A stretch of DNA of 64,000 bases, from positions 275,301 through 339,300 of the forward strand of contig JAGFNK010000007.1 of NCBI GenBank assembly GCA_025769875.1. The letters run 5' to 3'. The first letter of the stretch is position 1, and each line of letters opens with the position of its first letter. Positions 2,030 through 61,881 of this stretch are shown in pieces. Both the position numbers and the translations under genes were made by a program. The notes beneath the pieces are model-generated. The model made no database searches. It was not told the origin of the DNA and saw only the letters and a program-made list of their open reading frames with translations. This stretch comes from Russula earlei (lineage: Eukaryota > Basidiomycota > Agaricomycetes > Russulales > Russulaceae).

Positions 2030-3421
2030 TTGCTTCAGAGCTACCAGCAGCCTTCTTTCGGAAATTCTGCAGAAAGCAATGGGCCATGCATCGTTCAAGT
2101 CTACAACAACCTTGTCGAGCCCACGAGCGACGCGAATGCGGGGAGGCTTATCGGGAATAGGAATTTCTACAGCAATGATTACATGGTGAGCTACTGGGGG
2201 AGCAAAACAACCTCCCAATCTATGACGCATTTTCAGGTTCAGCGCGGTCCCGGCTACGTCGTGACGTTGAAGATGTACTCGACGCGGACGAGGAACACAG
2301 AATGCGTCAACTCGCGGAATGTTCGTGTCCCTAGCCTGTCTATTCCAGTCTATAGAGTGACATCTCGCACTAGCCATTCGGCTTCCACCTCGCTGATGGC
2401 ACCCTCTACACATACTTGAAGAGGAGATGAGTACGAGGACATCGCCGCAGCATGGGATTGGAACCTCATCCCCGGCCATACGGTAGACTACGGTGCCACG
2501 CCGCTCGACTGCGCTCGGAGCGCAGTCATGCCCGGTGGAATGGACTCGAGTCGTTCGTCGGCGGCGTGTCGAACGGCCAAACCGGTGCCGCGGCCATGCG
2601 ATATCTCAACCCGCTCACCAGTGCATTCAGCTGGGTGAAGCCAGGCCTCAAGGACGATACCGAATCCGTCATGGTCGCTAACGTCGCTTCGCACACCTCC
2701 GCGCCCGTTTATTCCGTCTTGGATCAGAGACGGCATTCAGGTGACAACTACGTTAACGGTGAAGTCTTCAACGGGGCTGACAACCAGACGTTTGCCGGTA
2801 CCACGTCGCTCTGGCACGGAGGCGTCGGCTACCTCTTTGGCCCAGGGTCGACGGTGCTTTCCTTGTCCGTCGGCGGGCGCAGAGGCGATTGGTCTGTGAT
2901 CGGCACGTCCACACAGCCGCCCGAGACGGTCGATCTTTTCGCAGCGTGGATTGAACATCAGGACCATGACGCAGCCGATCTCATATGCCATCTTCCCTGA
3001 TACCACGTTTGACGGCTTCCAGAACAAGAAGGATAGCCGTAATATCGTCTGTGTCCAGAATGACGCGCATATTTCCGCAATTCTCGACTTGGATTACGAC
3101 ACTGTCTCTGCAGTTTTCTGGGATGTGTTCGGCGGGTATATTCCTCTACATGACCTAGCTTCCAGCTACGGACCCCCGAGTATCACCTTCAGCGGGAACG
3201 TGGGGCTCATGCACAATTTCAACACTGGGGAGCTCACAGTTTCGGAACCCTCGCAAACACTGACCAGCGTAGACATCGTGGAAGTAGGGATAAGGGAGAC
3301 ACCTTTGCCATTTACTGTGCAATTCCCTCCTGGTCCAGGGGGATCAGCGGGGAGTAGCGTTACACAGCAGTTCTTTTGTCATCCTTTCACATCACCTTGT
3401 CTGGAACTGAGGAGACAATAA
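2030..3421 (+). pseudogene. Polysaccharide lyase family 8 (3' part, frame-broken)
   Basis: The frame pieces together resemble the C-terminal half of the PL8 lyases (hyaluronate, chondroitin AC and xanthan lyases), extracellular enzymes that cleave acidic polysaccharides by beta-elimination. Landmarks in order: NRNFYSNDYMV, RGPGYVVTLKMYSTRT, DGTLYTYL, DEYEDIAAAWDWNLIPG, GLESFVGGVSNGQTG, SAPVYSVLDQRR, SLWHGGVGYLFG, ISYAIFPDTTFD and the terminal beta domain. Introns 2186-2236 and 2321-2373 join these in frame. Apparent frameshifts lie near 2418, between 2505 and 2530, and near 2960. The last two disappear if the A or T inside CTG/CAG at 2509-2511, 2523-2525 and 2959-2961 is ignored (see findings). 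The N-terminal alpha barrel with the catalytic residues was not found upstream, so the gene is also truncated or displaced. Confidence 0.75.
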
Positions 3422-4696
3422 GTATGGGGGCAAAGATTTTGCGAGACCTTCGAAGGCATCTTAATTTTTCCGACGAGGGGGAAACAATGCAATGCATAGT
3501 ACAGCCCAAAAACCCATCTGCTGTGCTCATAACCAAGCTGGTCATACGATGCCTGGTGGCTGGTAGGCGGCTTCATCCGGTATCGGCGCTGCCTGAGGGA
3601 TAGCAGACTCGCGTTGTTCCGACGTGTGTGTTCGGCGATGATTTTGTCCACTGGGGCCTTGGGGATTGTCACAGAGTCAGGAAAAGGCTTTCGAGGACCG
3701 AGTTGACCTTCAGGATCATGCCGAAACAACAATTAGTCGAGTTGTCCACCCAAAGTACGGGATGAACCACATACATACATTTAGACCTTGATGCCGAGGA
3801 CAATTGAACCTGATTGAGACGAAACCGAGTGCTCGACGCGACCCAGGCCGCATCCCTTCATAGTTTGTCCCCGGCGATCGTATGGCCGGCGCAGATGCCG
3901 CAACCGTGTGCATGATCTCCGTCGGAGCTGGGTCGTGCTTGGAGAGAGGAAATCGCTAGCTAGGCGGTCTTCCGCCGCGATCTACGTGGTCGCGCATCGG
4001 ATCATTTGAACGGCAGGGCCGCATTTGATCTTTTGCGTCTGCATCCATCTTCGCGTACGACCGCGTCCCGCATCTGCGCTATTATCGGGAGTTCTGGTGC
4101 GAGAAGAAGCTCTGTTGAGAGACGGTCGCCAGGGTTGCCCAGCGGGAGTTCGGCGGGGGGATGGCGTCGCACTGGCGAGCGCGGGCGGGACTGGTAGAGG
4201 CGAGAGGTGTCGCGCGGTGAGCGTGTCTGCGACTTGAGGATGCCGTCTGGGGGTGAGTGTGATGCAATATGTACAGTGTTCTTTGATGGAACCGAGGAAG
4301 AAGGGCATCGATGTTAATAAGGGTGGCAGGGCCAGGGAGGAGTGATTGTGAAAGGGAGATCCATTCGGCCAGGCGAAGACGACTGTGACGTGGCGTGGTC
4401 CATCACCGGAACGTAGCGTAGGTCACTTCGCCCTCGTGCCTCCTCATCGTGAACGTTGTGTTGCAGCGCATCAAGTTGGCTGCCATTGTCGTGGTCGTGG
4501 TTATGGGACACATCGAGGAAGGAGGGAGGAACTCCCCAGATCTGGGGGAAGATCGAGAGTCTCTGCCAGTAACCTCCTGGTTTTTGATTCTCTACGCCAC
4601 ATGCTCTCTTCATTAGAACCGGTCACCACAGTAGTCGGTTTGAAACATCCGAGTTTGGATCGTGGTAAGCATGACGAGGTGTTGTAAGTGTATGCA
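3422..4696. other. Intergenic, no supported gene
   Basis: Several short minus-strand ORFs (for example 3379-3732 and 3982-4308) overlap each other and show no recognisable domain, signal peptide or consistent intron structure. The part around 4000-4250 is GC-rich. I would not annotate a gene here. Confidence 0.5.
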
Positions 4697-6075
4697 CTAT
4701 ATATGTGGAATAAACGAAGTCCAGTGTACAACATGATAGGCTGCAGGAGAAAGCGATCTAAGATACAGGAAGGGGAGTACAAGCAACACCAATCGACTGA
4801 GCATATAAAAGTATGTTGACACCACTATAACCAGAGCGAGGAAACCGGAAACGTATACATAACCGGAATCGTGTAGACGTGTTATCAAAGGCATTATCGA
4901 ACACAGAATTGGCACAGCAGATATAGTGACCGAAGCAACGCGCCACAGGGTTTGCTCTGCGCTAGAGGGAAAACTGAATGACCATCCGATGCAGTGAATC
5001 CCGCCGAAAGCCAACGTGACACCGACCACTGCTACCAATGCGAAAGCTAAACGGGTGGTGGCCCATGCGTGAGGATAAAATGTGCCAACCCTCATCGTGT
5101 GCTTCTCCTCTTCGCCAAAAAGAATATCAAAAGGCTTCGTGAATGGCCAAACAAGGACACGAGTTAGCCACGGCATCTGATGTTCTTTGGATGGTCCACG
5201 GACAATCGCAGCTCCAAGGTCAGAAAGTGCATCTCCAAGTGCGTCCCGAAATCCACCCAAACTCGTGGCCTCCATATTCCCATCATCAATGGGCTCATCC
5301 GTATCTCGCTTCTTGTATACTCGTACCCCACGTTGCACGTTCAGAGGCTTGTGCCACCACAGAATGAACATCACGAAATTTAATGTTGCGAACGCAACCG
5401 TGACGAGCTCCAGTTCAGTGACGGGGAGGCCTTTGATTCCTCGTGCGATGCATTGGACCACGAACCAGCCAGTTTGTAGAACAGCAAGCGTTTTGGAGAT
5501 GACGTCTCCCTTGCTCTTGTCCTCGATCTCCTCCTTTGCGATCCTTGGGAAATCGCCATTGCCCGTCAAAGAATACGAGTTTAGCTCTCCAGGCAACAGG
5601 ACCAGGATGGGACGGTTTCCTTCATATTTCATGAATCCTCCCATAATCGCGAAGAATCCATGAGTCGTTGTCCATCCCTCTCCTTAATCTGATTATCAAT
5701 ATCGATGATTACTCTCGGTTTTCAGGGCGTACCTTTGTGATTCTTAGCTAGCTCAACAGCAGCAAATCGTTGTCTCAACGCCCACGCAATCATTGCCTCT
5801 GGCACGAAAAGGGCAGCAAGCATGAGTCCCACGCGTCGCACTGCGACCCTCGCCCGGCTCTCGAAAGGACTTGGGATATTGGGGTGCACGGACACCCAGA
5901 TGCACAACAGAATGGTGACTGCACAACTCCACATAATGTCCCAGAGCGACCTACATCCTCTTGGATCATCGCAAGAGGCGCGGGCTCGAAATTGGTCGAG
6001 AGAGAGATGAGGTGGTGAGGATTGTGGAACGGGGGATGCTCGGGTTGCGGCTAGAATTGCAAGAATGAGGATCAT
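4697..6075 (-). CDS. Fungal multi-pass membrane protein, 442 aa
   Basis: Two exons, 6075-5733 and 5682-4697, flank a 50 nt intron (5683-5732). The junction keeps the frame and gives a GEGWTTTHGFF stretch, as expected for this family. The protein opens with a signal-like hydrophobic segment (MILILAILAATRAS) and a CDDPRGCRSLWDIMWSC motif. It then has a hydrophobic stretch near residues 45-65, another near 80-95, a conserved QTGWFVVQCIARG..LPVTELELVT core and four to five C-terminal hydrophobic helices. This matches a large uncharacterised family of fungal integral membrane proteins; its function is unknown to me. No frame damage is seen. It is probably a plasma or internal membrane protein. Confidence 0.85.
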
Positions 6076-6689
6076 AATGGAGGGGGGTGATGGCGCAGGA
6101 CAACAACAGGCCTGGGGGTAATGGCTGTCCTCAAAGTGGTGCTGTGAGCCCCGTGGTGGGCATGCGGCATGAAATGAGCGCCTAGAGAGGACTACAACGG
6201 TTGATTACCTTTCGACGCAAGTAAGAGGACTTTCTTGACCTGTGCTTGTTTCATCTGCTATACATGTCCCTCATTCACGGGCCATGTCTCTTTCGATCAT
6301 GGAGGGCCGCGATGGGGGCAAAGCCGACTATTTCAGGTGTTGATTTTGTGTACAACACTTTTCTTGCGCATAGATATCCCATTGCGGAATCCACAGCCAT
6401 TCTTGGAGTTCAATTGTTTGTTGGCTATGCAAACCACGCTTTATGGGGTGATGGAGATGTGTGATTTCCATAAACGCCGTGTCTCGACCGGATCCATCAT
6501 ACCTCTTGGATCTCACGGAACTCGCCGAGCTTTTTTTTTTTACCAATGGGGTCAACCAGTGAGAAGACCACTCCCGACCATCACAAGACGCGTGGGCTAT
6601 GTGCCAAACATGTGTGCCTTGAAGAGCGAAGACTCGGAGCACACCGTGATTGAGCATTTGTTCATTGTGGTCTGTCAAGAGTGCAAGGG
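6076..6689. other. Region upstream of the OYE remnant
   Basis: It holds the upstream region of the divergent membrane-protein gene, part of which recurs at 530-710, and then sequence in which I find no Old Yellow Enzyme N-terminus. The ORF at 6235-6720 has no recognisable content. I see no other gene. Confidence 0.5.
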
Positions 6690-7882
6690 CATCTCAAATT
6701 CTGGTCCGAGGAGCAGATAGTCGCATGGAAGAGGGTACGTGCATCGCTGGGTCCCCTCCACCCACACGTGTCGGCTGATCATGCGCGATCTCCTCGCATT
6801 GAACGCCTCCGCAGGTGACGGACGCCGTGCACGCAAAGGGATCGTTCATGTTCTTGCAGCTCTGGGCGCTCGGACGGGCCGCGTCGCCGGATCAGCTCAA
6901 GCGGGAGGACCCGTCGTTCGAGTGGGTCGGCGCGGGGACCGTCCCGTCCCCCGCGCGTCGCCCGGCGTCGGCGAGGGCGGGCCCGCGCCCGCTGACCAAG
7001 GCCGAGATCGCGGAGTACGTGCAGCTGTACGCGACCGCCGCGCGCAATGCCGTCTTCCGGGCGGGCTTCGACGGCGTCGAGATCCACGGCGCGAACGGGT
7101 ACCTCGTCGACCAGTTCCTCAAGGAGGGTTCGAACGACCGCGTGGACGAGTACGGCGGCTCCGTCGAGAACAGGGCGAGGTTCGCCCTCGAGGTCGTGGC
7201 GGCGGTCGGCGCGGCGGTCGGCGAGGAGCGCGTCGGACTCCGTTTGTCCCCGTGGCTCACGTATCATGGTGCGTTTGGCGTTTGTTTTTCCCCCTTTCCT
7301 CGCCGTCGGCAGGCGTATCTTTCCGGCTCGGGTAACTGACGCTTTGTCCCCCCGCCGACCCACCATCCCTCTCGAACGTACGTACGTACGCGCCGACAGA
7401 GACGCCTGAGAGTGACCCCATCCCTACCTTCTCGTATCTCGTCACGGAGCTTCGCAGACGCCATCCCAACTTTGCATACCTGCATGTTATCGAACCGCGC
7501 GTCTCCGTTGTGGACGATCGCGTCTTGGACCCAGAATCGAAAGAGTCGAACGACTTTTTGCGGGACATCTGGGCGGGAAAGCTCTGGATATCCGCGGGCG
7601 GATTCGCGCGCGAGAGTGCAATCAAGCAGGCCGACGAGCGAGGGGAGCTGATTGCTTTTGGATGGTACTACACGTCGAATGTGCGTTGAGCTTCCTGAGT
7701 TTCCTATGCGGCTCGGACCACTCAGTTTATCGCTCTCATCCTGACAGCCCGATCTCCCTATCCGTCTTGAGAAGAACATCCCACTGACGCCCTATAACCG
7801 CGAGGTGTTCTATACTGTTGAGTCGCCAATTGGGTACATAGACTTCCTTCCAGCAGATAAATCGCTTGTATCTGCCTCCTGA
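6690..7882 (+). pseudogene. Old Yellow Enzyme (NADH:flavin oxidoreductase), 5'-truncated
   Basis: Four exon pieces join in frame: (6690)-6734, 6815-7268, 7400-7680 and 7748-7882, with introns of 80, 131 and 67 nt. The product matches the FMN-binding TIM barrel of Old Yellow Enzymes, which reduce activated C=C bonds with NAD(P)H. Seen are FWSEEQIVAWKR, VHAKGSFMFLQLWALGR, GFDGVEIHGANGYLVDQFL (substrate-binding His and Asn), NDRVDEYGGSVENRARF, ISAGGF and FGWYY. About 100 N-terminal residues (the first strands with the usual MAPMTR-like region) are missing: upstream of 6690 no such sequence appears. The remaining part is undamaged and GC-rich, so truncation may be recent, or the first exons may have been displaced. 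Confidence 0.8.
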
Positions 7883-8074
7883 CAGTTTGATATATCGATG
7901 CGATATGCTCTAGATGAGCTCGATTATGACTAGCTTTATTCATTAGGAAGCCCAGAACTGTCGTAATCGCAAACTTAAGGAGCGCACACGATTGAGATTG
8001 ATTGTGCGTGAGTGATGCCAATTGCCTGCGATGGCAGGTGACTGACGGATCGCCATGATGCGATGTATTTATTA

Positions 8075-8128
8075 ATCATGATGCGAGGTTCAATCAAGAT
8101 GCGAGGTTTAATCATAATACGAGGATGA
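8075..8128. repeat. Three tandem 18 bp repeats upstream of the secreted-protein gene
   Basis: Units at 8075-8092, 8093-8110 and 8111-8128 follow ATCAWGATGCGAGGTTYA, the third more diverged. A related half unit precedes them (8063-8074). They lie about 65-120 bp upstream of a TATAAA box and about 220-275 bp upstream of the start codon, so they could be activator binding sites. Confidence 0.6.
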
Positions 8129-8191
8129 TAGCCCAGCCCATCCTGGTCCGGAATTCGCGGACGGGGACAGAGGAAGGGGAACTGACGATAG

Positions 8192-8197
8192 TATAAA
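8192..8197 (+). promoter_or_regulatory. TATA box of the small secreted-protein gene
   Basis: TATAAA lies about 150 bp upstream of the ATG at 8349, followed by CCAATGG at 8199-8205. Position and sequence fit a fungal core promoter; there is no experimental support. Confidence 0.45.
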
Positions 8198-8348
8198 GCC
8201 AATGGCTTCGGTTACAATTCTCTCCATCTGGTGCTCCCATCCACTCCATACTCGCCGGTGCTGGTTACCGACGATCTTTCTACATCTTATACGCCACCGT
8301 CTTGTACGACTTACATCCAAAACTCCACAATCCCACTCCTAAGTGACT

Positions 8349-8698
8349 ATGCGCACGTCTCCCGTTTTTGTCATATTCTGCCTCGCCGTTGGCATTGCTC
8401 CATCGTTTGCGCTTCCTTTAGGTACGCCCACCACTTCGAGTTCTTTTCCTTCCAATGAAGTTGACTTGACCTCGCAGAAGTAAGAAGCCCGGATCCAGTG
8501 CTGCACACAAGAGGGCTTTTGTATTCATCCCTGAAGAAGGACCAAACAGAGTCTCCATCACCGAAGAAGGGCCAAACAGCCACAGTTGGGCGGGATGATT
8601 CGGGCCAGCTCCCTCTTTCAAAGAAACAAGAGAAGAAATATCATGGTTCAGGCATTAGGGACACGAATGTACGCTTTGCTGAAATTGGGTTTCGCTGA
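8349..8698 (+). CDS. Small secreted protein, 97 aa, unknown function
   Basis: Exon 1 (8349-8421) encodes a clear signal peptide, MRTSPVFVIFCLAVGIAPSF, then ALPL. A 56 nt intron (8422-8477) ends in CGCAG, and exon 2 (8478-8698) completes 97 residues with a TGA stop. The mature part (about 75 residues) has no cysteine, is rich in Lys, Ser and Gln, and holds two similar segments, SSLKKDQTESPSP and SPKKGQTATVG. The frame works only with the intron, and each part alone would be missed as a short ORF. The gene has a TATA box and tandem upstream repeats. It resembles the small secreted proteins common in basidiomycetes; no family is recognised, and an effector or signalling role would be a guess. 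Confidence 0.6.
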
Positions 8699-9900
8699 TC
8701 AAAACTATAAATAATAAATAATATTTGTGTATGAGTCAGTTAATCAGTAAGCAAGAGAGTAAGTAAGCATAGGTAAGCAGTCAGTCCAGAACATGACACG
8801 ACGGACAGGAATGGATAAGTCCAGTCCACTAAAACTCAACTCAGTGGTCAATAAAGGTGAAATATATTGACCACTGAATTGACTCAGCTCAGATTACAAA
8901 TTATTTTAAAACAATTGATTGATTTGTTGCCCTCTCCTCATGCATCACATTATTGTAAATATGTCAACCCAAACAATTAGAACTTAGTCAAATGCTTAAG
9001 AGAGGGCAGCTCAGTGCCCAAGTTATGTAACCTAAGATGCAACATGAGTTGCCCCGAATCACCAGGGGGATCATATACACTTAATTTGCCCAATCAATTT
9101 AGCCTTAGCAGACTCGGATAAACTTAACACAATGGCGTATGTTAATACATGGATTTATATTGAATAAATTGAGACATAAAGTGCATCCACAAATATGACA
9201 CCAAATTTTAAATAGGAACGGTCTACTCATTACATGGTGATAATCAGCCGATGGGGATCAATCGCCTCGATGACAGAGACTGACCACACAGATTAAACTC
9301 AACGTGAAGATCTGGGCTTTACATTTTGTTACAATTTTACTCGAGCCAAATAATATAGTTAGCATTCTTATAATTGAATCTTGTTTGTATTTTCCCACTA
9401 AGAACCAAGTCTGTGTTGAAGGCAGCAGGCAGCAGCTTGCTGAGTTCGCGAAAACACACACAAAAGAAGGGACAAAACAGGTCTCTTGTTCTGAGGCGTA
9501 ACTAGAGTTTCTACATACAAGATGCGATCTATGAGAGAGGGGGATATTGGGGGATTGGGGAGACAGAAAGACGCGAGTTGGGAGTGCGATACATGGATGT
9601 GGAACAAGATGAGCCAGAGCGATGAGCTGCGATGAAAGAGGGTTGAGAGCTGGCTGGGCAGCGGAGGTGGAACCGGTATGTGATGAAAGAGAGTCGAGAG
9701 CAATGATGCAGGGCTAGAATGGGATGCCGCCTTACAGCAGGACACTGTGTGACAACGTACTAAAGAATTACCCTGGACATGGACAGCCTTGCGAGACAGC
9801 CGATGAGCTATACCTGGAAAGTGAAGATCCTTTTGGTGGATATCGTCCTCTACACCTTTTGTTGAATGATAGACCCATTTCTACAGGACTATCATCATCT
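8699..9900. other. AT-rich intergenic stretch with decayed repeats
   Basis: No gene is supported. It contains a 13 bp perfect hairpin (8841-8877) and, at about 9236-9283, a degenerate piece of the dispersed repeat also seen at 31590-31890 and 57780-58010 (shared block ATGGGGATCAATC). The rest looks like old, CpG-poor repeat debris. Confidence 0.5.
8841..8877. repeat. Perfect 13 bp inverted repeat
   Basis: TCAGTGGTCAATA at 8841-8853 pairs without mismatch with 8865-8877 across an 11 nt loop. It resembles the CAGTGA..TCACTG hairpins at 255-407 in stem sequence and may be a remnant of the same kind of element. Confidence 0.6.
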
Positions 9901-10281
9901 TTAGCCTTGCTGCTTGCGGCAGCCCCTGCTGAACATTGGATCATGACCAACGATGTTCTTTGATAGGCTGCCATCATCGTCGGACCAATTTTTGGATTCC
10001 AGGTTCCATGTTATGAGATTCAAGACCCATTCAGAAGAACAAAGCTTCTTGTGAGCATCCTTGACCTCCGTCCTGGACATTCCTCTCCGCTTGAGGTTTG
10101 GGCATAATTGATTTTGGGTTAATATCATCATAGAAGGTTTTAAGAAGGGTGTGCAACTCTTCAATGATCTGGTGGCATGGTTCCAGGACAAAACCAAACA
10201 AATCTGGGTGAAGTATTAGTTTGTGTAGGAAAGATAGCTTTCCGTCACCACCCTGGATAACACCATCTTCATCCATGTCTC
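9901..10281 (-). pseudogene. FunK1 kinase, 3' part
   Basis: On the minus strand 10281-10040 continues the kinase C-lobe that is interrupted by gypsy 1. The last codons before the insertion (GYRDMDEDG..GGDGKLSFLHK) follow the segment ending QDMQHVFD on the far side (about 29640). After about 10050 a second frame (HKKLCSSEWVLNLI..NWSDDDGS) looks like the family's C-terminal tail to about 9901, so an indel or an unseen intron separates them. The first five bases (10277-10281, GTCTC) are the target duplication. Confidence 0.7.
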
Positions 10282-11112
10282 TGTTACGAACCAAGGCCAA
10301 GTCCTGGCCGAAGATTGTCTTATTTTACTCAAGAAAAACCTCTCTCACTTTGCATTACCGACTCCCTTCCATTTTCTGGGCTATCCCTCCTGCGGTACAA
10401 GATATTGCTATTGCAAAGGCACTATAACACGACCAGGCACCAGTTTCCTAATCGGGTAATCATCGCGTGGCAACCACATGGCCACTCAGCCACCATGGAC
10501 CCGAAACAGCGGCACAAACTCTTAGAAACTGTTGCATAAATCATCTGACATCATCAAGGCTCCAATGACATCATGGCTGACTGAGCAACTCCACAGTGAC
10601 CTCATAGGCTCACTAAGCGCTCCACTAGTGACATCATAATGATGTCATCGCTCCACAATGATCAGTAATGCGCTCAGTAAGCCTGAAACTTGACACAAGC
10701 AAGTTTATGCCTCTGTAGTCCTATTGGATGGTACCAAAGAGTCTAGAATAGTCCCAGTGCTTTGTAATCGACCCTGTACACTGTATATAAGCCCCAATGA
10801 AGCATGGCAGTCGTCAGACTGTCCATTTGTGATACTCTCATCTTCCTGGGTACTCCCCTGCGAACCGCTCAGTTTAAAGATTCCCCTCGCCTCCAAGGTA
10901 CTCTTCAACGACCGCCTTGTTTAAAGCCTTCTCGCTGCACTGGCCTCTGCTCTTCGCCTCTGCCTCCTGCAACACCTACCAGTCCCCATCTGGTACCTCC
11001 TCGTCGTTTGGCTCGTCCTCCTGTTCAACGCCGCCTTCGCCGCGTACCATCTGTTCCGACCCTTGCCCACCTGCTCCTGAGTCCTTAGTGATCAGCAGTA
11101 CATGTCTTGACA
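10282..11112 (+). repeat. Gypsy 1 5' LTR (831 bp)
   Basis: It matches 28789-29618 with about ten differences over 831 bp, mostly transitions plus single-base indels. It contains TATATAAG at about 10784 as a possible TATA box, and begins TG and ends CA. Confidence 0.93.
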
Positions 11113-11157
11113 TCTGGACAGTCTCTATCATCCCTGTATTGACCAGCCAACGCTCAA

Positions 11158-12060
11158 GTGTCCACTCCCAACTCCCCCACTATTGTCAACACTTCCCTGC
11201 GTCTCCCTTCTCCTCTGCAACCTACCCCACGCACTGCCCTTCGCATCCTCACTGAAGACATCGACCCAATCGACACATCCTCGCCTCTCAGCCTCCTGTA
11301 CTCCCCAACAGCTTCCCCATCGTCTCCCAGCATTCCTCAGCCCGTTCCTGACCAATTTGTCCCTGTTGGCACTCCCCCTCCAGCACAGAACGAGCAGCAG
11401 CAAGCGGACCGTCCTCCCTTGCCTGAAGGCTTCCTTGACCGCCCTCCTTGCACCGCGTTTCGCTTTCACCCTCACCAGTACTTCGTCCTTCCCACCTCCA
11501 ATCGTTCCCGTGAGCAGTGGCGTCCCCTCCACGACTTGAATCATCAAGATTATCTGGGACGCATCCCTACCTCAGACCAGTTGAGTCGTCGCGGCTTCAC
11601 AGACACTTACACGACCACCTTTCATGCACGCATCATCCACACTTTTGCTGTGGAACCATCCAACACTGCCCTTGCCACCCAGTACAACCTAACCCCCTTC
11701 GGCATCTGTTCCAACGTCGGGATATACGCCCCGGACGCTGACTTCCCCCTCGGACGTATCGCTTACATTTTTAATACGTCGTTATTTAGGAAGCTCCTTA
11801 CCCTACCTGCCATTTACTGTCCTGCTTATGAAGGGTCCTTTTGCCTGTCTATTGTACACGATTTCCTGGACGGACGCCTAGCTTTCGCGTACGGTTACTT
11901 ACACTTCGAAGAGAACAGTAACCGTGTCTCCTTGCGTCACTACTCGACTTATACCGTCGATACTATCTGTTTTAACCTGCAGCTACTTCGCTTCTGCTTC
12001 ACGCCTCGTATTCCCCCTAACCCCCTCGAAATAATCGGAGGTACCGTCTCGAAACCATAG
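11158..12060 (+). CDS. Gypsy 1 ORF1, 300 aa, unknown
   Basis: An uninterrupted ATG-started ORF lies between the 5' LTR and gag, where Ty3/gypsy elements normally have only a leader. Residues 1-105 are rich in Pro, Ser and Thr (low complexity, e.g. PTASPSSPSIPQPVPDQFVP). Residues 110-295 look globular, with aromatic-rich stretches (FRFHPHQYFVLPTSNRSREQ, FCLSIVHDFLDGRLAFAYGY). No CCHC knuckle, protease or membrane segment is seen and I recognise no family. AATAAA words follow at about 12109-12124 and a GTAAGA donor-like site at 12084, so it could be expressed from its own transcript. It is intact even though pol is damaged. Confidence 0.6.
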   Translation: MSTPNSPTIVNTSLRLPSPLQPTPRTALRILTEDIDPIDTSSPLSLLYSPTASPSSPSIPQPVPDQFVPVGTPPPAQNEQQQADRPPLPEGFLDRPPCTAFRFHPHQYFVLPTSNRSREQWRPLHDLNHQDYLGRIPTSDQLSRRGFTDTYTTTFHARIIHTFAVEPSNTALATQYNLTPFGICSNVGIYAPDADFPLGRIAYIFNTSLFRKLLTLPAIYCPAYEGSFCLSIVHDFLDGRLAFAYGYLHFEENSNRVSLRHYSTYTVDTICFNLQLLRFCFTPRIPPNPLEIIGGTVSKP

Positions 12061-12113
12061 ATCTTGCGCACGGTTCTTAAAAAGTAAGAACCACCCTTGT
12101 AACGCTTCAATAA

Positions 12114-15100
12114 AGATCAAATAAAGATCCTTTTCTTGTTTTAACTAAAGTGCCACGAGAATACGCCTTAGAAGAAGTCGAAGAAGAAGACGCTATTACT
12201 CGACACATCTTAAACTTAAATCATTATCGAACTTGGACCTCCGTTGCATTCCCTGTCACCACTTTAACCAACTTACACGACGTACCAGGAGTTGAACCAC
12301 CTCAGGAAGATTTCCCCCATCTTATTGTTAAAGAGTTCCTTGAAGTCTTGCCCTTTGGACAACTCTTAAGCCACGACGAACACGCACTATATCTTGAAAC
12401 CCTTAGTCGACTTCTACCTCCAGCACGACAACAACTATTATATTGGCACCTTGCTCAAGCAAAGAACATCCAAGGACAACCAGTTGACTACCAATCCTTA
12501 CGTGCCAGTGAATTAAACCTCTGGACCAGAGTCATTCAACCACGCCACCACATTATTATCCACTCCTTGAGAACAGGATACTGCTTGTTCTACTTAGGTT
12601 GGACATACATCAGCTACTATCGTCTCACTGTCCAGTTCTACCACCTACGCCTCAACAGAATACAAAGGGAAAACCAATCTTACGTCCAACTTGCGGTTGT
12701 ACCAGGAATACACAACACCTTCGATTGGGAAACTAACTTGTGGTTGTACGACGCAGACTATAATCAACCTTGGGCAATTACCAGCCCAGACACCTCATAT
12801 ACTGGTCCCCCTGCATACTATTCTGTCCCAGCAATCCTAGAAGCCTCAAGTCTTGCCCCTCGACCCCTCACACCAATTCAGACCACTGTTCCAACTAGTC
12901 AAGAACGTTGGTCTGCCAGCACAGAAAATGTTGAGATTACCACTGCTTTGGGCAGTCTGATGTAATCACAGCCCAGTCGCGTTAACACGTTGGCTCCCAC
13001 GGACCGGGCGCTCTCGGCTCACGCGCGTCGCTCACGCGTCGGATCGGCCCGGACCGGCTCAGCTCAGATGCTGCAGCCTGCGTATGTTGCAATGATAAGT
13101 TAATTGATGACAATCGGTAGCTACTAACAACTGATCCTTTATGATACAAGTTGGTAGTTATGATTACTTTGCTTAGAGACGCTTTCGCGTATTTAAGAGG
13201 CACTCAATTAGCTAGATCGCTTCAGTCTTGTCTTACACAATACTGAAGTGAGTACTTACTGTTTCCTATCTTATCTCTCGCATCTAATCACGCGTTGTAG
13301 ATATCTTTTGATAGGTATTACTGAATTATAGTCTTGTCTTACACAATACTGAAATATCTTTTGATAGATCTTAAGGATCTTATTGCTCTTATCATAACCT
13401 GCGCCCATCTGCTTCAACAGGTTATGGGCCCTGACCGTATCTAAAGTCCAAAGTCGAAGATTCACACACAAGCTTATCATTTTTCCCTCTTCACAAGCCT
13501 CTGTTATCAGACGACACCCTACTCCCTCGGTCCCTGGAGCCGAAGGATTGACGCGCGCGTTATCTATCACGCGTCAGGGGTACTGATTTGATCTTCAATA
13601 ATCCGGCAACAACTGCTCTGTTAGCCCGGGTTGGCAATTCGCAATTACCTAAAGTTCACTCACGGCACCCTCGCCTAATGTTTACGTTCCCTCCTCGATC
13701 TCGATCACTCGCTTGGTCATCTCGCTTACTGGCCATTACCCCACATCCTGAATAATTATCGCGCGTCGCATTACAGTTACAGATGATAGCCCCTCCAGCA
13801 ATACTTCTTAGGATGCTGAGGGAGAACACTTTTAGACGCACGCGCTCTTGAAATATACATTCAGAAGGTCACATTGGCAGTAACAAAAATGACATCAAAT
13901 TGTATACTTGCAAGCTCAAGTGGGAGGAACTCAAACGCGCATACGGCGGCGTCAGATCAATGTCAAGCGTTCTACACATGGGCATCCCTTACATGCACAT
14001 TCCTAGACGTTAGACGACACACATCAGACGTTCCCGCGATTGCAACAAACGATGCATGGATCACTCTCCAATATAACCATTTATTCATATCGAATCTCCA
14101 TTTCACCTCCTTATCTATCTAAACGTTACCCGACGCTTACTCGGCTGTCGCGTCGACAAATTCTAGCCTCCGGCGCTCCGATGGACCTTTCCACACATGA
14201 TCTAGTACGGATCAGTAATGAAGATGGTCGTCGGGCCGGCCTCTCCGCCTCACAAAATACAGTCATTCCGGTAAAGACACACAACACTACGTCCGAAATA
14301 CAATGCTGCTATTGCAATCAACTTGGGCACGCAGTCTGGACTACTGGAAGGAGAAGGCAACAAATACAAAAGTGACAGGCACTGACAGGAACGTCAGCGC
14401 GTACATAGTGGGCAATACTGCTCCTATCACTGAGGTATCGGACTGTCCGATGAATATGAGATTCTGGGTTTCCCTTTACGCGGCGGCTAGATCTTGATCG
14501 ACTACGGAGCTCCTCATCATATTAGTCCAGTTCCGGACCCCCGACTTCATTATTTGCGCTCCGGCCTCCAGATCTATTACTCTGGGAGGTTACACAGTCA
14601 TCAGACAGATTGGGACTGGATCTGCGTCCGTCCTGCCGGCCGGAAGGCCTTGGAGATATCCTTATTAACCCTCATAGACATTCTACATGTACCGAAGGCC
14701 GATGCATGCGACTACACAGTGCGCGCGCTACTTCGGAATGGGGGATGCATCACTTACACTCAAGAGGGGTGTTCAAACTTACACATCAAAGATCAGAAGA
14801 TCGCGCACAGCTGGCTGGAGAACAATCTATTGTGTATTAACTTCATAACTCCAGCTCTACACGCGCAAAGAAGTGTCCTATCATTTCACATCCAGCATCA
14901 GCGCATGGGACATATGTTTCCACCGCGCGTTAATCTATCACAGTGATTCCGATACTCGGATCTCGCTTGGCTTTACGGATCGCGATCAGTTATCTTGTCC
15001 GGGGTATGCACTCGGCTAGCAAGCTCGGCTAGCGAACGCGTCTTCTTTTTTTGGTTGCCCCTTAGCGATTGGATCCTCGGCTACAGATTATCTACAGCAC

Positions 15101-17873
15101 CTTAGCTGATCTGCTGCACGCGAGATCAATTCGAGGCGCTAGCTATTGAGGCAACGCGCGCTCACATACTTATCAGTTCATGGAGGGATCAAACATAGAT
15201 TAACAATGCTAGATTCACCACAGGAGAATGGAGTGCCGGATAGATGGAATCGGACCCTTGAAGACAACACGCGCTCAAAGTTGCACGGCGCTGGTCTTAG
15301 CCTCGGGTTCTGGAGCATAATACTAACGCTGCCATCCATACTAATGATCGGACTCCATCACGCATTCTCTGTGCACACACACTTCATACACTGTGAACGG
15401 ACGGACAGACTCCGGTCGTCTCACAATTCCGCCTTCTTTAGATGTAGGGCGTATGTCTACACGCCTGACCATCGTAATCTTATCGCGCGACAAGCGCATA
15501 CTGCATAGCCAGGGGACATGTTACAGACACTGCTCCGCCTGCACAACTCTTGGTCCCTACAGGACCGGTGACATTCTCTGCCTTACTTTCACATAAACCG
15601 GATCGTCGGCACTTCGTTCCGCACCTCCGGAAACCCCATTAGATTCCCTCACACCACACTCACTCGACCTTACCCCACCTATACAGCCAGTTCCACACAC
15701 TCCGCCATACCGTTTATGCCATCATCACTTAGCATTATTGGGACAATTCATTGGTCCACCGCGTCTGCTCTCAGTTACACATCTTGGGTCTTATTCGCGT
15801 CCGCGTTCCGAATGTTTCGGAGGGACTGCATACACAGATCCGAGAGGGCGCTTATCACATACGGCTCGGCTACGCGGAAGCAATCACTAGGCTACATATC
15901 GGGAAGGCACTTTATCGGATTCTGCCGATGAGTGGCAAGTCGTGTGTCAAATATGTGATCGACGCGCTTGCGAAAATTGGTACCTGGGATCAATTGATCT
16001 TATAGATCTTATCGGAATGGGTGTGCAGCACGCAAATCTTGGAGATTTCACGCGCGTTTCAGTTGCACAGGGGTTCACCCAATTTACAAGGCATTGACAT
16101 TGATGAAACCTTCTCACCAGTAGCCAGGTCCGAGTCTTAGCGACTCTTGTTCAGCGTTGGCCGCGCGAACACATTGGGAAATCAACGGACGTCTTGTCGG
16201 CGTTCCTCTTTGGCTCACTGGGTGACAAGATTTAGTTTTATTGGAGCAACCGCAAGGCTTCATCACACCGGACGGACAAGAAAGCTTTTCTTTGGTCTTA
16301 CACAGGCCTATCGTACATGGGACTTACGTTCTCATGGAGTCCTTAGTGACTCGCGTTTACATGCACGCATTCTCATGCGGGCATCGACTTAGCACGCACG
16401 CATTCCCATGCGGGCACTTATCTCGGCTTCGCGCTCACGCATTCTCATGCGGACATATGTCATCGCCAAGACGCGGGGGGATCCATTGCCATTTCCTTAT
16501 CAGTTCACATCCTCTCTGCCGATGACATCATTATCTTAGGCGACCCTTGCGGTCTCGACGCTCACATCTACGGGCAGCGCTCACATCTACGGGCAGCGCT
16601 CACATCTACGGGCACATATACATCCTTGTCTATATGCTACGAGTTGACAGATCTAGGCGAGATCGCGTCATATCTCGGGATCCGCGTTACACGCGATCGC
16701 TCGGCTAACACAGACATCGATCAATCAAGGTACATCTCGGATCGCTTCGGGATGGCGGTTCCACTCCGCTCCACTCCTGTAATCTCGGAGGTCTCACCTC
16801 GGGATGGCGGACTTCCGTTCCGCTTCCGCATTCCGCTCCGTTCCGACGCGGAAGTTCAGTTGATCAAGCACTCTGGAGACGCAACGCCTATGGCGATTAG
16901 GCAATATATTAATGTTTTAATGGCAGCCTCCCCTATGTGCAGATCTGAACACTTCACTGGACACTTTCCTGGCAGTCTCTCGACTGTGCGTTTACACGCG
17001 TTCACACGCGTCCACACTTTCCTTTGTAGTCTCTCGCCTGCATACACATTTCCTTTTGGAGTCTTTCGACTCGCAGTCTCTGGACTCACCCGCTTTTCAT
17101 TCATTTGCAGTCCTATCTTATCAGGATGTCTACGCACTGATGGTCCACTTCGCTGCACGCCCACACGCGACCCAGTCTTTTGTGTCACTGGATCAGATCT
17201 TATCTCGCATCGACCGACTGTATCAATCACGGGGGGATGTTGAGATTACCACTGCTTTGGGCAGTCTGATGTAATCACAGCCCAGTCGCGTTAACACGTC
17301 GGCTCCCACGGACCGGGCGCTCTCGGCTCACGTGCGTCGCTCACGCGTCGGATCGGCCCGGACCGGCTCAGCTCAGATGCTGCAGCCTGCGTATGTTGCA
17401 ATGATAAGTTAATTGATGACAATCGGTAGCTACTAACAACTGATCCTTTATGATACAAGTTGGTAGTTATGATTACTTTGCTTAGAGACTGCTTTCGCGT
17501 ATTTAAGAGGCACTCAATTAGCTAGATCGCTTCAGTCTTGTCTTACACAATACTGAAGTGAGTACTTACTGTTTCCTATCTTATCTCTCGCATCTAATCA
17601 CGCGTTGTAGATATCTTTTGATAGGTATTACTGAATTATAGTCTTGTCTTACACAATACTGAAATATCTTTTGATAGATCTTAAGGATCTTATTGCTCTT
17701 ATCATAACCTGCGCCCATCTGCTTCAACAGAAAATACTGAGTCAAATCCGTGGACAGCAAGGTGTAACTGCAAAACAGAGTATTGCACGTGCAACTTTCG
17801 ACCAGACACACCTCCTACTCCTGACGGAATTACCTTGTGGACACCAGGCGATTACCACCTCCCCATTCGATAA
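12114..17873 (+). CDS. Gypsy 1 ORF2, split by copia 1
   Basis: The frame is open from 12114. The first common alternative start is GTG at 12150, and no ATG is near. It runs to 12928, where copia 1 is inserted, and resumes in the same frame at 17735, ending at TAA 17871-17873. From the GTG this makes 305 residues. It is rich in aromatic and charged residues (EEVEEEDAITRHILNLN, YCLFYLGWTYISYYRL, FDWETNLWLYDADYNQP), with no known domain seen. The lack of an ATG and a splice-acceptor-like end (TTTTAACTAAAG, ending 12150) suggest it may be a second exon. Its end overlaps the start of ORF3 in another frame, so ORF2 and ORF3 may be joined by splicing or frameshifting. Confidence 0.5.
12929..13419 (+). 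repeat. Copia 1 5' LTR
   Basis: 491 bp, nearly identical to 17238-17729; one of the few differences is CG (13180-13181) against CTG (17489-17491). Two copies of GTCTTGTCTTACACAATACT lie about 100 bp apart within the LTR, the first forming a hairpin CTTCAGT..ACTGAAG. Confidence 0.93.
13420..13431 (+). promoter_or_regulatory. Copia primer-binding site, initiator tRNA-Met half
   Basis: GGTTATGGGCCC directly follows the 5' LTR. Its complement, GGGCCCATAACC, matches the anticodon arm of eukaryotic initiator tRNA-Met (around CAU-AAC), as in Drosophila copia, which primes with a 5' half tRNA. The same word follows the 5' LTRs of copia 2 (as complement, before 23277) and copia 3 (after 34981). Confidence 0.7.
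16367..16454 (+). repeat. Hairpin minisatellite in copia 1, 3 units
   Basis: Three units of GCATTCTCATGCGGGC-like sequence, about 33 bp apart, lie just upstream of the ADDIIILGD part of reverse transcriptase. Each unit can fold as GCAT-TCTC-ATGC. Copia 2 and copia 3 have six units at the same place. Confidence 0.75.
17238..17729 (+). repeat. Copia 1 3' LTR
   Basis: 492 bp, preceded by GGGGGGA and followed by the duplicated GAAAA. Confidence 0.93.
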
Positions 17874-18457: not shown

Positions 18458-18461
18458 ATCT

Positions 18462-33373: not shown

Positions 33374-33487
33374 TCACCCCCTTGTTAATGTCTAAGCAAC
33401 ATAGGGGATAATGGTAGAACGACAGTGGTGGGTATGGAAGTGGATCTGGTTGCGAGGGACTTGACATATTTTCTCGGGTCTGCATCG

Positions 33488-45281: not shown

Positions 45282-45356
45282 GTTGGAAGAAATCGATATA
45301 TTTCCTGGCGAGCGTGTGGTTTGGGGTCAAGGGTTCGAGTGCTAAGCTTGTTCTAA

Positions 45357-47074: not shown

Positions 47075-47888
47075 ATGTATACGATCGACCACGCCGAGCG
47101 TGCTCTTCGGCAACACGATCCGACTGAGAAGACCCTCAAACGATACAGTATTCCTGTACTACAGGAGTTATGTGTCAAGCGCAGGCATTGATGTGGGTGG
47201 CTCAAGTCACCCGCTGAAGAAGCCATATATCGATGCACTATTGATCCACATGAGATGAACTCACCGTCGCTTGTCCTTTATTCACCATGGAAGCCTAGCA
47301 GTGGGCAGCATAGTCGCAGGGACAGGGATCAATTAAGATTGAAGATTCGACTTCCGAATTTCTTGCCTCAACGCGTGATTACTCTCCCAAGACCTGACGG
47401 CACCTCTGAGCAGAGCATCGCCGATGAAAACCGAGGCCATCAACAGCAAGAACACAGCGATGAACCAGCAAGCACTTTCTGATTTACACAGCCCACAGCA
47501 GCGGAGCATTCACACAGCGAGGTCGACACATTCTATGTCCAGCATGCATTGACTCCAGCACCGACAGACGATCAAGAGAAGATGCCTGACTGGAAATACT
47601 GATTGTACGTCTGCTCCTGGGTGTCAGTCAAACACAATTGCAATTCCAAGCAAACGATCCTACCCTTTTGGGAAGGATGCGCCGAGGAAAAAAAGAAAAG
47701 TGGAAAGTTACATCCTTGTGAGGATTTACGAACAACGAAAGGACCTGGAACATATGAATGAGATCGAATATCCCTTGATGCCAGACGGTGGACTTGATCT
47801 TGTGGGGTTATCTCAAAAATTAAACAGTCAGACAGTGCCAGGCAAGTCGGTTCAATATCATACCGATCTGTGGCATTGGCTATGCTGA
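47075..47888 (+). pseudogene. SAP-domain nuclear protein, left copy
   Basis: ATG 47075 opens MYTIDHAERALRQHDPTEKT, then a SAP motif, LKRYSIPVLQELCVKR / GIDVGG..LKKPYIDALLIH, a helix-extended-helix fold that binds scaffold or AT-rich DNA. The two halves are in different frames because of the A in CAG at 47182-47184; without it the reading is KRGIDVGG. An intron (GTGAG to GCAG in the right copy) probably follows. The C-terminal part has a basic GKKRKVESYILV segment and ends LWHWLC at 47888. The middle cannot be read in a single frame. CAG/CTG insertions relative to the right copy also occur at 47299-47301, 47590-47592, 47825-47827 and, downstream, 47957-47959. Confidence 0.5.
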
Positions 47889-48344
47889 CTGTCTCCTAAG
47901 GTGCTGGATGCCCGCTCTTCACGACCGTGGTTTAGCAAGCGCCTTGTTTTGGAAAGCAGGTGCCATTAGGCTGTTGAAAGCAAAAGAAGGGTATTTATGG
48001 GTGGTAGTTCAATCATCCTCGTAGCTGCTCAGTGATCGGAGGGTATAAACCACTACTGCAAGATCCCTGTTTCAGCCAACCCCATGCCTCTGTCTGTCCA
48101 GATATAACGACCCCTCGTCGTCATCCCAAATTTACAGGCTTCTTTCATGCCAGCATTAAGTATCCACTGTACAAGAAACTGTGCATACAACCAATGCGTT
48201 TGTCCGACGGGATAGGACCTCAAATTATAGGAGTGTTACGATAGACTGGCAAATGATGGGGGGAGACGGAAAAACGAACATGATTGTTGTGGAAGGTAGC
48301 GGCTGTCTCGTTGCAACGGTCCATGTTATGAGGAGACATAACAT

Positions 48345-49316
48345 CTATCGAGAATGTAACATAACAAGGCAGGCGAAATGGATTTCTTTGACATGGGGTG
48401 CCATTATAGACCATTTGCTTTGACACTGCTTTGGTGTCCGGGTCGCTCCCATGGCCTTTGAAATGGAAACCCAAAATCCTTGAGCGGACATGTCCGATTT
48501 ACCTTCCCGGGCCAACTCCTCAATTGCGTGATGAAGTTGGCCTTCCTCCTCCGAAGACCAGGCTCCTTTTCCATACAGATGCAGCGTCAGAAGGTCTTGA
48601 TAGAACACATATCAGGAGACATACCTCTCCGTCTGATGCCCTGATATTGTGTGTGTTGGCGAAACCGGTCGCTACAGTCGGCCGGTGAGCGCTGCACTAA
48701 TTCTGCGACTGGCAACCCAGTCATTTCCTTTCTTCTGGACAGCTCTGTTGGGAGGAGGGAGATAAGAAAGGAAACATGTGGAGACTGACAGACGTCTCAC
48801 CTGCGCAGCTGCTCATCCTCCGCAGCCCCCCACTTCCCTGCTTTAGCAAGGGGATCACGCGCACGCCGAACGTGGTAAAAGACGGACTTGACCCCCCTCT
48901 GGGGCACAGGCACGAGCTAAAGCACACATATAACACATATATCGGCATTACTTGAGTATACACCGACCGATGCGGCTCCAAAACCCATTAGTAGGCTGGG
49001 AAGAGTATATGAGATCATCCAACTGCTCGTCATCCAGGTCATTTTCCTAAACGGCAGTGCGTTAGCAAAACAAATGATGATTCCAATGCATTGTGCACCT
49101 TCTTGTATGTCCCTAATGTGGCATGAACTTGTCCTACCTCCTCCCTAGTGAACGGACCCTTACGACATGATATGCCTGAGCAAGTTGAAAATCACGTCTG
49201 AGGCTAGAAACTTCAAAAGCTCACTCACCAGCGTCCCCGAATTGCTTGACACTCATCCATTGTGTTGCTAGGAACTCGGGTATGTCCTCTGGAGATACAG
49301 TACAATGCTGATTCAT
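48345..49316 (-). pseudogene. Myb/SANT three-repeat protein, left copy
   Basis: A mirror copy of the right-arm gene at 59645-60614, with the same start, introns and stop. One insertion (complement CTG; CAG on + at 48907-48909, where the right copy has CG) shifts the frame at the start of exon 4, in the second Myb-like repeat, so this copy would be truncated as read. Another difference changes SARGF to SAQGF near the end. See the right copy for domain details. Confidence 0.75.
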
Positions 49317-49890
49317 ATGCTATATTTCCTGGAGGACATTAGTGAATGCGGAGGGACATACTTCGTTCCGACATATGCAATTGAGTATAACCAGGTGGAA
49401 CGCAAAAAGGGGAAATGTTCATAGGTGGCGAGTTAAGTATCTGTCTACTACACGGCCGCTACGAGCCGGAGTCGCAGGCCGAAGTGGCCACAGGAAGGAA
49501 TTATTGCAGCAAGTCCCAAGTCTAATATAATAAGATTATTTCAGTGTCTCACTGTGGGGCACGAACACTGAGGATCCAAGGCGAACTATCTGAGTGTACA
49601 AGTAAGGCCGCTACGAGGTACGCGCATGCACGCATACACACTGGTAACTATCCCCGCTCGATTTTTTTTGTGGATGGCGAGCGAGATCCGCCCCCTTTTG
49701 TCCCATTGAGTGAGTCATCCACAGCGCGATTGTGCATTCAAATTGCCGCCTTTTGATCTAATTTAATAGACCGTCATGTGTTTTGCCGAGTGGATTATTG
49801 TCAGCGCATATGCATATATTAGGGGCCAATCGACCGAGTTCACATAGTGCCAAAACCCCAACTCCATATCCAACCGTCCTTTATCACCTC

Positions 49891-59178: not shown

Positions 59179-59644
59179 CGTGTCGAAGTCGCGCGCGCCT
59201 GTATGCACACGCATGCCGAGGCTGCACCTAGCGAACGGAAAGGGACTTGATTCGCTCACATGGACATTTGCTTTACCTGTCATTAAAGAACACCGTCCAT
59301 AGTTGAAATGTAGTTACCAGTGTGTACGCGTGCATGCGCGTACCTCGTAGCGGCCTTACTTGTACACTCAGATAGTTCGCCTTGGATCCTCAGTGTTCGT
59401 GCCCCACAGTGAGACACTGAAATAATCTTATTATATTAGACTTGGGACTTGCTGCAATAATTCCTTCCTGTGGCCACTTCGGCCCGCGACTCCGGCTCGT
59501 AGCGGCCGTGTAGTAGACAGATACTTAACTCGCCACCTATGAACATTTCCCCTTTTTGCGTTCCACCTGGTTATACTCAATTGCGTATGTCGGAACGAAG
59601 TATGTCCCTCCGCATTCACTAATGTCCTCCAGGAAATATAGCAT

Positions 59645-60614
59645 ATGAATCAGCATTGTACTGTATCTCCAGAGGACATACCCGAGTTCCTAGCAACACA
59701 ATGGATGAGTGTCAAGCAATTCGGGGACGCTGGTGAGTGAGCTTTTGAAGTTTCTAGCCTCAGACGTGATTTTCAACTTGCTCAGGCATATCATGTCGTA
59801 AGGGTCCGTTCACTAGGGAGGAGGTAGGACAAGTTCATGCCACATTAGGGACGTACAAGAAGGTGCGCAATGCATTGGAATCATCATTTGTTTTGCTAAC
59901 GCACTGCCGTTTAGGAAAATGACCTGGATGACGAGCAGTTGGATGATCTCATATACTCTTCCCAGCCTACTAATGGGTTTTGGAGCCGCATCGGTCGGTG
60001 TATACTCAAGTAATGCCGATATATGTGTTATATGTGTGCTTTAGCTCGTGCCGTGCCCCAGAGGGGGGTCAAGTCCGTCTTTTACCACGTTCGGCGTGCG
60101 CGTGATCCCCTTGCTAAAGCAGGGAAGTGGGGGGCTGCGGAGGATGAGCAGCTGCGCAGGTGAGACGTCTGTCAGTCTCCACATGTTTCCTTTCTTATCT
60201 CCCTCCTCCCAACAGAGCTGTCCAGAAGAAAGGAAATGACTGGGTTGCCGTCGCAGAATTAGTGCAGCGCTCACCGGCCGACTGTAGCGACCGGTTTCGC
60301 CAACACACACAATATCAGGGCATCAGACGGAGAGGTATGTCTCCTGATATGTGTTCTATCAAGACCTTCTGACGCTGCATCTGTATGGAAAAGGAGCCTG
60401 GTCTTCGGAGGAGGAAGGCCAACTTCATCACGCAATTGAGGAGTTGGCCCGGGAAGGTAAATCGGACATGTCCGCTCGAGGATTTTGGGTTTCCATTTCA
60501 AAGGCCATGGGAGCGACCCGGACACCAAAGCAGTGTCAAAGCAAATGGTCTATAATGGCACCCCATGTCAAAGAAATCCATTTCGCCTGCCTTGTTATGT
60601 TACATTCTCGATAG
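59645..60614 (+). CDS. Myb/SANT-repeat DNA-binding protein, 232 aa
   Basis: Six exons join in frame: 59645-59732, 59786-59862, 59915-59993, 60045-60159, 60216-60334 and 60394-60614 (introns 51-59 nt; the intron at 59994 uses the donor GTCGGT). Three Myb-like units can be seen: GPFTREEVGQVHATLGTYKK..FWSRIARAVPQRGVKSVFYH; KWGAAEDEQLRRAVQKKGND..WVAVAELVQRSPADCSDRFR; and AWSSEEEGQLHHAIEEL..FWVSISKAMGATRTPKQCQSKW. Spaced tryptophans and the RTP.QC..(K/R)W pattern resemble Reb1/Dmp1-type fungal DNA-binding proteins, so binding to a specific DNA site in the nucleus is likely. It is short for that family and lacks a long N-terminus. The copy in the left arm is frame-broken. Confidence 0.78.
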
Positions 60615-61023
60615 ATGTTATGTCTCCTCATAACATGGACCGTTGCAACGAGACAGCCGCTACCTTCCACAACAATCATGTTCGTTTTTTCCGTCTCCCC
60701 CCATCATTTGCCAGTCTATCGTAACACTCCTATAATTTGAGGTCCTATCCCGTCGGACAAACGCATTGGTTGTATGCACAGTTTCTTGTACAGTGGATAC
60801 TTAATGCTGGCATGAAAGAAGCCTGTAAATTTGGGATGACGACGAGGGGTCGTTATATCTGGACAGACAGAGGCATGGGGTTGGCTGAAACAGGGATCTT
60901 GCAGTAGTGGTTTATACCCTCCGATCACTGAGCAGCTACGAGGATGATTGAACTACCACCCGTAAATACCCTTCTTTTGCTTTCAACAGCCTAATGGCAC
61001 CGCTTTCCAAAACAAGGCGCTTG
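60615..61023. other. Spacer between Myb and SAP-like genes
   Basis: Convergent 3' ends. I see no gene; it mirrors 47889-48344. Confidence 0.5.
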
Positions 61024-61881
61024 CTAACCACGGTCGTGAAGAGCGGGCATCCAGCACCTTAGGAGACAGTCAGCATAGCCAACGCCACAGATCGGTATGA
61101 TATTGAACCGACTTGCCTGGCACTGTCTGACGTTTAATTTTTGAGATAACCCCACAAGATCAAGTCCACCGTCTGGCGTCAAGGGATATTCGATCTCATT
61201 CATATGTTCCAGGTCCTTTCGTTGTTCGTAAATCCTCACAAGGATGTAACTTTCCACTTTTCTTTTTTTCCTCGGCTGCATCCTTCCCAAAAGGGTAGGA
61301 TCGTTTGCTTGGAATTGCAATTGTGTTTGACTGACACCCAGGAGCAGACGTACAATCAGTATTTCCGTCAGGCATCTTCTCTTGATCGTCTGTCGGTGCT
61401 GGAGTCAATGCATGCCGGACGTAGAATGTGTCGACCCTCGCTGTGTGAATGCTCCGCTGCTGTGGGCTGTGTAAATCGGAAAGTGCTTGCTGGTTCATCG
61501 CTGTGTTCTTGCTGTTGATGGCCTCGGTTTTCATCGGCGATGCTCTGCTCAGAGGTGCCGTCAGGTCTTGGGAGAGTAATCACGCGTTGAGGCAAGAAAT
61601 TCGGAAGTCGAATCTTCAATCTTAATTGATCCCTGTCCCTGCGACTATGCTGCCCACGCTAGCTTCCATGGTGAATAAAGGACAAGCGACGGTGAGTTCA
61701 TCTCACGTGGATCAATAGTGCATCGATATATGGCTTCTTCAGCGGGCGACTCGAGCACCCACATCGATGCCAGCGCTTGACACATAACTCCTGTAGTACA
61801 GGAATACTGTATCGTTTGAGGGTCTTCTCGGTCGGATCGTGTTGCCAAAGAGCATGCTCAGGCGTGGTCGATCGTATACAT
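61024..61881 (-). pseudogene. SAP-domain nuclear protein, right copy
   Basis: The ATG homologous to the left copy is at 61881, but the T of CTG (CAG on + at 61859-61861) breaks that frame after a few codons; an upstream in-frame ATG (61895) restores a continuous reading. The SAP part, LKRYSIPVLQELCVKR, is followed by WHRCGCSSRPLKKPYIDALL because of a second CTG (CAG on + at 61771-61773) and a compensating one-base loss. A splice pair, GTGAG..GCAG (about 61708 to 61640), fits between exons. The C-terminal part includes PRKKRKVESYILV, a classic nuclear localisation sequence. As with the left copy, the middle needs frame changes. Confidence 0.5.

Follow-up and report, generated by a model that had tools for sequence, protein, structure and literature searches.

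The extra A or T found inside CpG dinucleotides in repeats of Russula earlei, an ectomycorrhizal basidiomycete, is very probably a consensus artefact arising from the merging of near-identical sequences, and not a biological feature. It was observed in the final 64 kb of contig C7 (339,300 b) of an assembly of 66.6 Mb in 1374 contigs; this stretch of 64,000 nucleotides is called the window below. At the sites concerned one repeat copy reads CG and another CTG or CAG. Among the explanations offered by the first-pass annotation, the one in which both variants are written out by the consensus is supported by three observations: a link between extra bases outside CpG and segregating SNPs in one LTR family, a disproportion between insertions and CpG mutation load, and a placement of the extra base that depends on neighbouring runs.

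Nine repeat pairs of the window differ by 69 one-base indels, of which 24 have the form CG versus CTG or CAG, 27 are of the homopolymer type, and 18 are of other kinds; longer gaps number 11. The chance level for this form is 2.5%, and the observed level is about 14 times higher (p about 3e-21, a value to be read with the fact that the nine pairs have copies in common and the indel events are not all independent; one of the 24, at 13027, sits in a badly aligned stretch). It is the largest non-homopolymer class in the window, not the majority, and the earlier description of it as the dominant indel goes too far for the window, although the enrichment over chance is strong. The individual cases listed earlier are present, at most about 10 bases from the coordinates given; they were located, for one member per pair, at 10288, 13181, 19049, 34539, 14444, 14529, 15414, 47300, 47591, 47681 (earlier given as 47690), 47826, 47958, and 48908. 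The same kind of difference also occurs at 46310, 46781, 46938, 47096, 48710, 14482, 14977, 15158, and 16367; at 46310 the CTG is also found in identical copies elsewhere, and therefore it was the partner that lost a T there. Two repeat pairs in the window, with 41 SNPs combined, have no indels at all: 31994–32881 versus 63113–64000 (reverse strand), with 21 SNPs of which 19 are CpG transitions, and 32881–33376 versus 45356–45851 (forward strand), with 20 SNPs.

The LTR at 10282–11112 (forward strand), a member of family LTR2, of which 40 copies were compared, has CG at 10287–10288, while its partner at 28789–29618 (forward strand) has CTG at 28794–28796. Similarly, the CG at 13180–13181 in an LTR1 copy corresponds to CTG near 17489, that at 19048–19049, also in an LTR1 copy, to CTG at a site earlier placed at 23402, and that at 34538–34539 in an LTR to CTG at a site earlier placed at 39023 (all on the forward strand); beside the last of these, at 34505, there is a difference outside CpG, ATG versus ACTG. 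The CTG at 14443–14445 (forward strand) is matched by CG in the copy at 34488–37999 and in the short contig C1194, and by TG in the copy at 20269–23768, so that both variants and their union are present at one site in different copies. The CAG at 14528–14530 (forward strand) is likewise CG in the copy at 34488–37999 and in C1194, and the copy at 20269–23768 has TG there, not CA. The arm repeat is represented in the window by a copy at 45847–49650 (forward strand), which, compared with the identical copies in other places, has 7 additional A or T bases inside CpG, including those at 47300, 47591, 47826, 47958, 48710, and 48908, and by a copy near the contig end at 59311–63119 (reverse strand), also with 7 such bases and with totals of 21 one-base insertions and 8 deletions versus 17 SNPs. 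The end of the arm is overlapped by a 383-codon reading frame at 62742–63893, whose protein looks F-box-like; its relative at 32101–32796 reads 231 codons only.

Three repeat families were compared across the same assembly, with real copies serving as references: the arm repeat (45847–49650), with 30 copies used among the 44 matches listed and at least 44 in the assembly, LTR2, with 40 copies used among 42 matches listed, and LTR1, with 23 used among 42 matches listed. The left and right flanks of the arm were compared in 20 and 22 of the 30 copies, respectively, the poorly aligning ones being left out. With one of the seven identical copies described below as the reference, 58 of the 100 one-base insertions in the 30 arm copies lie inside CpG (31 C[T]G and 27 C[A]G, the inserted base in brackets), so that in this family the CpG insertion is indeed the majority class. 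In the five sets pooled (arm, two flanks, LTR1, and LTR2), from which one-base indels common to five or more copies were omitted as true family indels, 111 of 226 private one-base insertions are inside CpG, the remaining ones comprising 78 in homopolymers and 37 others; one-base deletions number 78. CpG transitions make up 1977 of the 3493 substitutions in these sets. Across the sets, the proportion of isolated (non-run) insertions that fall in CpG roughly parallels the CpG proportion among SNPs: 58/67 versus 1071/1247 in the arm, 29/34 versus 127/199 in the left flank, 11/15 versus 337/402 in the right flank, 6/11 versus 305/809 in LTR1 (where the 23 copies hold just 6 private CpG insertions), and 7/21 versus 137/836 in LTR2.

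Seven of the 30 arm copies used (L011–L016 and L019), located on different contigs, are identical letter for letter over 3796 b, and in many copies the similarity extends at least 1.2 kb to both sides; the repeated unit therefore appears to be of recent origin and to exceed 3.8 kb. In three arm copies compared together with their flanks, L022, L025, and L027, the divergence from the identical copies shifts sharply along a single copy, L022 having 12 SNPs in 3.8 kb and then 52 in the next 1.5 kb, as if reads from other copies had replaced part of the contig, or gene conversion had taken place.

The most direct evidence for the writing out of both variants comes from LTR2, a family poor in CpG (31 in the reference copy) and rich in non-CpG SNPs. 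In the SNP-match tests, from which insertions common to more than five copies were omitted, 17 of the 25 distinct non-CpG insertions in the 40 LTR2 copies add the base that another copy has as a SNP at a neighbouring position, compared with 5.2 in a context-matched null (maximum 12 in 2000 draws), and 9 of the 25 match a SNP present in at least four copies (null 1.7, maximum 7). Among the matches are TT[C]CCC, in which the second T is C in 22 copies (T600>C), TAT[C]C (T764>C in 28 copies), and CT[C]T (T648>C in 18 copies). One copy, L057, is 837 b long versus the standard 829 and has the bases of two subfamilies together at several sites. It had been argued earlier that extra bases outside CpG favour a consensus artefact, and these 17 matches bear the argument out, but the example then cited, near 10626 in the LTR2 copy at 10282–11112 (CTA versus CA), is not a case of it, having no matching SNP in the family; near 10863 in the same copy another extra base outside CpG (GAA versus GA) matches a SNP carried by 2 copies.

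The LTR2 family thus points to repeat copies as the source of the mixture. A merging of the two nuclei of a dikaryon at one locus, instead of repeat copies, is a sub-form of the same explanation, and both may occur; as the general source it is possible, though doubtful. The LTR2 insertions match SNPs common to up to 28 of the 40 copies, and this counts against it, because such positions are expected to differ only rarely between alleles of a single locus. In the arms, the extra bases match no variant of the other sampled copies preferentially, as a mixture of nuclei would lead one to expect. The SNP match of the non-CpG insertions is weak there (6 in 40, null 3.2, p 0.08), which counts against the preferred explanation, and in the CpG class the matches equal the null in the arm (44/50, null 44.6) as in LTR2 (3/4, null 3.1), a comparison that carries no information, since almost every CpG is variable. 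If the arm insertions stemmed from pooling with the other sampled copies, TG would be expected elsewhere at CTG sites and CA at CAG sites; against this expectation, a directional test on the arms did not find CTG sites to be clearly TG, or CAG sites to be clearly CA, in the sampled copies (TG in other sampled copies 2.39 at CTG sites versus 2.65 at CpGs at large; CA 2.67 at CAG sites versus 2.26). The variant at an arm site would therefore be one that only the copy in question, or its allele, carries, and it may have been a private variant of this kind that met CG reads from the abundant identical young copies.

Also in keeping with a second haplotype is the contig C1194, of 13,280 b, which is nearly identical to 4943–18232 of the window (forward strand; 81 SNPs and 57 gap openings) and is probably an unpurged second haplotype of that stretch. 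CpG transitions account for 45 of these 81 SNPs, and in 42 of the 45 the window has T or A and C1194 has C or G. The comparison also shows many run-type deletions in C1194, and it is not decisive alone because this contig carries many deletion-type errors of its own. Against mixing of nuclei speak, in addition, the most mutated right flanks, with 2 insertions and 315 CpG transitions, since alleles should differ there at least as much. Nuclear mixing may nevertheless add to the merging of repeat copies in the arms, or be its main form there.

The number of CpG insertions is not proportional to that of CpG transitions. The right flanks just mentioned belong to eight copies with at least 28 CpG transitions each, and the other fourteen copies have 9 insertions and 22 transitions. 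In the arm body, the copies with at least 22 SNPs per kb have 7 insertions and 761 CpG transitions, and the remaining ones 51 insertions and 310 transitions; in six old arm copies (L030, L032, L033, L035, L037, and L038) there is no CpG insertion beside 502 transitions. When the arm and its flanks are divided into 500-b bins, with insertions included in the distance, the ratio of insertions to transitions is 12:46, 33:142, 20:389, and 23:779 at 1–3, 4–8, 9–13, and 14 or more differences, respectively, which corresponds to about 1 insertion in 5 events where bins are little mutated and 1 in 35 where mutation is heaviest. The share of insertions among insertions plus transitions also drops with the divergence of the whole copy (Spearman −0.57, p 0.006), while the density of insertions does not follow it (Spearman −0.26, p 0.24). 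Per 1000 CpG, there are 0, 8.4, 36.2, 16.7, and 13.5 insertions in bins of 0, 1–3, 4–8, 9–13, and 14 or more differences when insertions are included in the distance, and 1.8, 10.3, 45.9, 16.7, and 1.3 when SNPs alone are counted; the peak of density over the distance bins comes partly from how distance was counted. Similarly, a contrast within copies, with 27 insertions in near bins and 2 in far bins of eight copies by the SNP-only distance, vanishes when insertions are included (26 in 40 near and 21 in 26 far bins of ten copies), and the argument therefore does not rest on the contrast between near and far bins.

A methyl-CpG process should scale with CpG transitions, and the fact that the insertions do not counts against the reading of the extra bases as real mutations. 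Such a mutation can be envisaged as deamination of 5mC, giving a T:G mismatch which is cut 5' of the T, whereupon C is filled in and T kept, with CTG as the product, or CAG on the other strand. Both the location within CpG on either strand (111 bases inside, 3 outside without a run, and 17 outside in runs) and a degree of recurrence at particular sites would follow from it, while it leaves the doubled SNPs outside CpG unaccounted for, and its sequence context should be that of CpG transitions. This is not the case: insertions inside TCG/CGA are 3 of 111, compared with 504 of the 1977 CpG transitions (p 2e-10), and those at CCG/CGG are 45 of 111, compared with 332 of 1977 (p 1e-8). No paper describing a mutation of this type surfaced in a literature search. 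The methyl-CpG-linked mutation suggested by the first-pass annotation is thus opposed by load, by context, and by the doubled SNPs outside CpG, and is very unlikely; hardly more can be said for its restricted version, in which a part of the insertions, inside CpGs preceded by A or G, would be real +1 products of faulty 5mC repair hidden among artefacts.

The distribution of the extra bases among copies bears on a further suggestion made earlier, a systematic base-calling error at methylated CpG. Repeats are often methylated in basidiomycetes, and the affected sites are CpGs in repeats, as such an error would have it. It should, however, affect a given CpG in every copy, and in the 30 arm copies, where there are 58 insertions and 5047 CpG cells without change, 37 of the 46 sites were hit once. 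Repeated hits at the same CpG are somewhat commoner than under even spreading (15 pairs versus about 7.6 expected, an expectation computed by hand), which counts to some degree against the consensus artefact. Moreover, none of the seven identical arm copies has an insertion at any of the 218 CpGs of its 3.8-kb body, although two of them (L013 and L015) have one CpG insertion each in the right flank. These insertion-free bodies, together with the doubled SNPs outside CpG, for which it offers no account, speak against base-calling error, which is very unlikely.

The preferred explanation, merging by the consensus, would operate as follows. Reads of two near-identical sequences would be pooled under one contig, with further copies of the repeat in question as the probable partner sequence and the dikaryon's second nucleus as a possible additional one. 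At a SNP the consensus would keep both bases, so that CG and TG would give CTG, and CG and CA would give CAG. With reads rich in indels and low in miscalls, a two-base template would require a single deletion in each read, a price that may be no higher than that of a miscall in half of them. CpG dominates because CpG transitions are most of the SNPs among the copies of the arm repeat.

The placement of the extra base was compared with the output of a toy likelihood model in which reads often carry indels and seldom miscalls, at error rates that were assumed. In the assembly, an extra base beside a run of T or A joins the run instead of splitting the CpG (17 cases), while it lies inside where A or G precedes the CpG (63 of the 111 insertions); just outside a CpG and without an adjacent run it is found in only 3 cases over all contexts, one of which, CG[A]C at reference position 540 in the left flank of L022, lies in an error-rich stretch. 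When CG and TG reads are mixed 50:50, the model yields CTG after C in 29 of 60 trials, TTCG after T in 28 of 60, and a doubled base after A and G in 10 and 4 of 60, respectively; with a one-third mixture doubling occurs after T only (6/60), with low-indel reads there is no doubled base in 48 trials, and at a miscall rate of 3% the base is doubled in 1 of 48. As modelled, doubling would therefore need a mixture near 50:50. Both run effects, the enrichment at CCG/CGG and the joining of T or A runs, agree with the model. At CpGs preceded by A or G, however, the model seldom doubles the base and produces no clear order, whereas in the assembly the order is near-fixed (CT and AG). Outside CpG, C[T]A (5 cases) and T[A]G (4) follow the same order as CT and AG, and G[T]C (4) and A[T]C (3) the reverse one; five of these seven reverse-order cases were inspected, and they adjoin C runs (LTR2 606 and 643, LTR1 1102, and left flank 222). 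The near-fixed order would result if the software broke ties in favour of CT and AG.

There is no N in 290,057 bases of the loci examined, which fits long reads. A literature search found no account of the sequencing method used for R. earlei. For a JGI set that includes other Russula species, the sequencing platforms are reported as Illumina, PacBio, or both, and the assemblers of the PacBio-only genomes as Falcon or Celera Assembler (PMC7550596).

If read as proposed, CTG or CAG at a CG, and doubled SNPs generally, would flag places where a consensus has merged two sequences, and the signature could serve as a cheap, read-free test for collapsed or cross-polished repeats. Doubled bases can also create false frameshifts in genes of repeats, make indels seem more numerous than they are, and distort studies of mutation that draw on draft fungal genomes.

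Noisy long-read assemblies are known to contain consensus errors caused by mixed alleles or collapsed repeats, and the extra bases described here resemble such errors in being one-base errors in repeats with close relatives and in their run-dependent placement. They differ from the known errors in that both bases of a SNP are kept in a near-fixed order, a signature for which no paper surfaced in a literature search, and in that CpG transitions come to mimic an insertion of CTG/CAG type. Deamination of methyl-CpG gives CpG transitions in fungal repeats, and, methylation being presumed here, it would supply the SNPs, 1977 of the 3493 substitutions being of this kind. Its own products are substitutions, while the feature in R. 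earlei consists of insertions.
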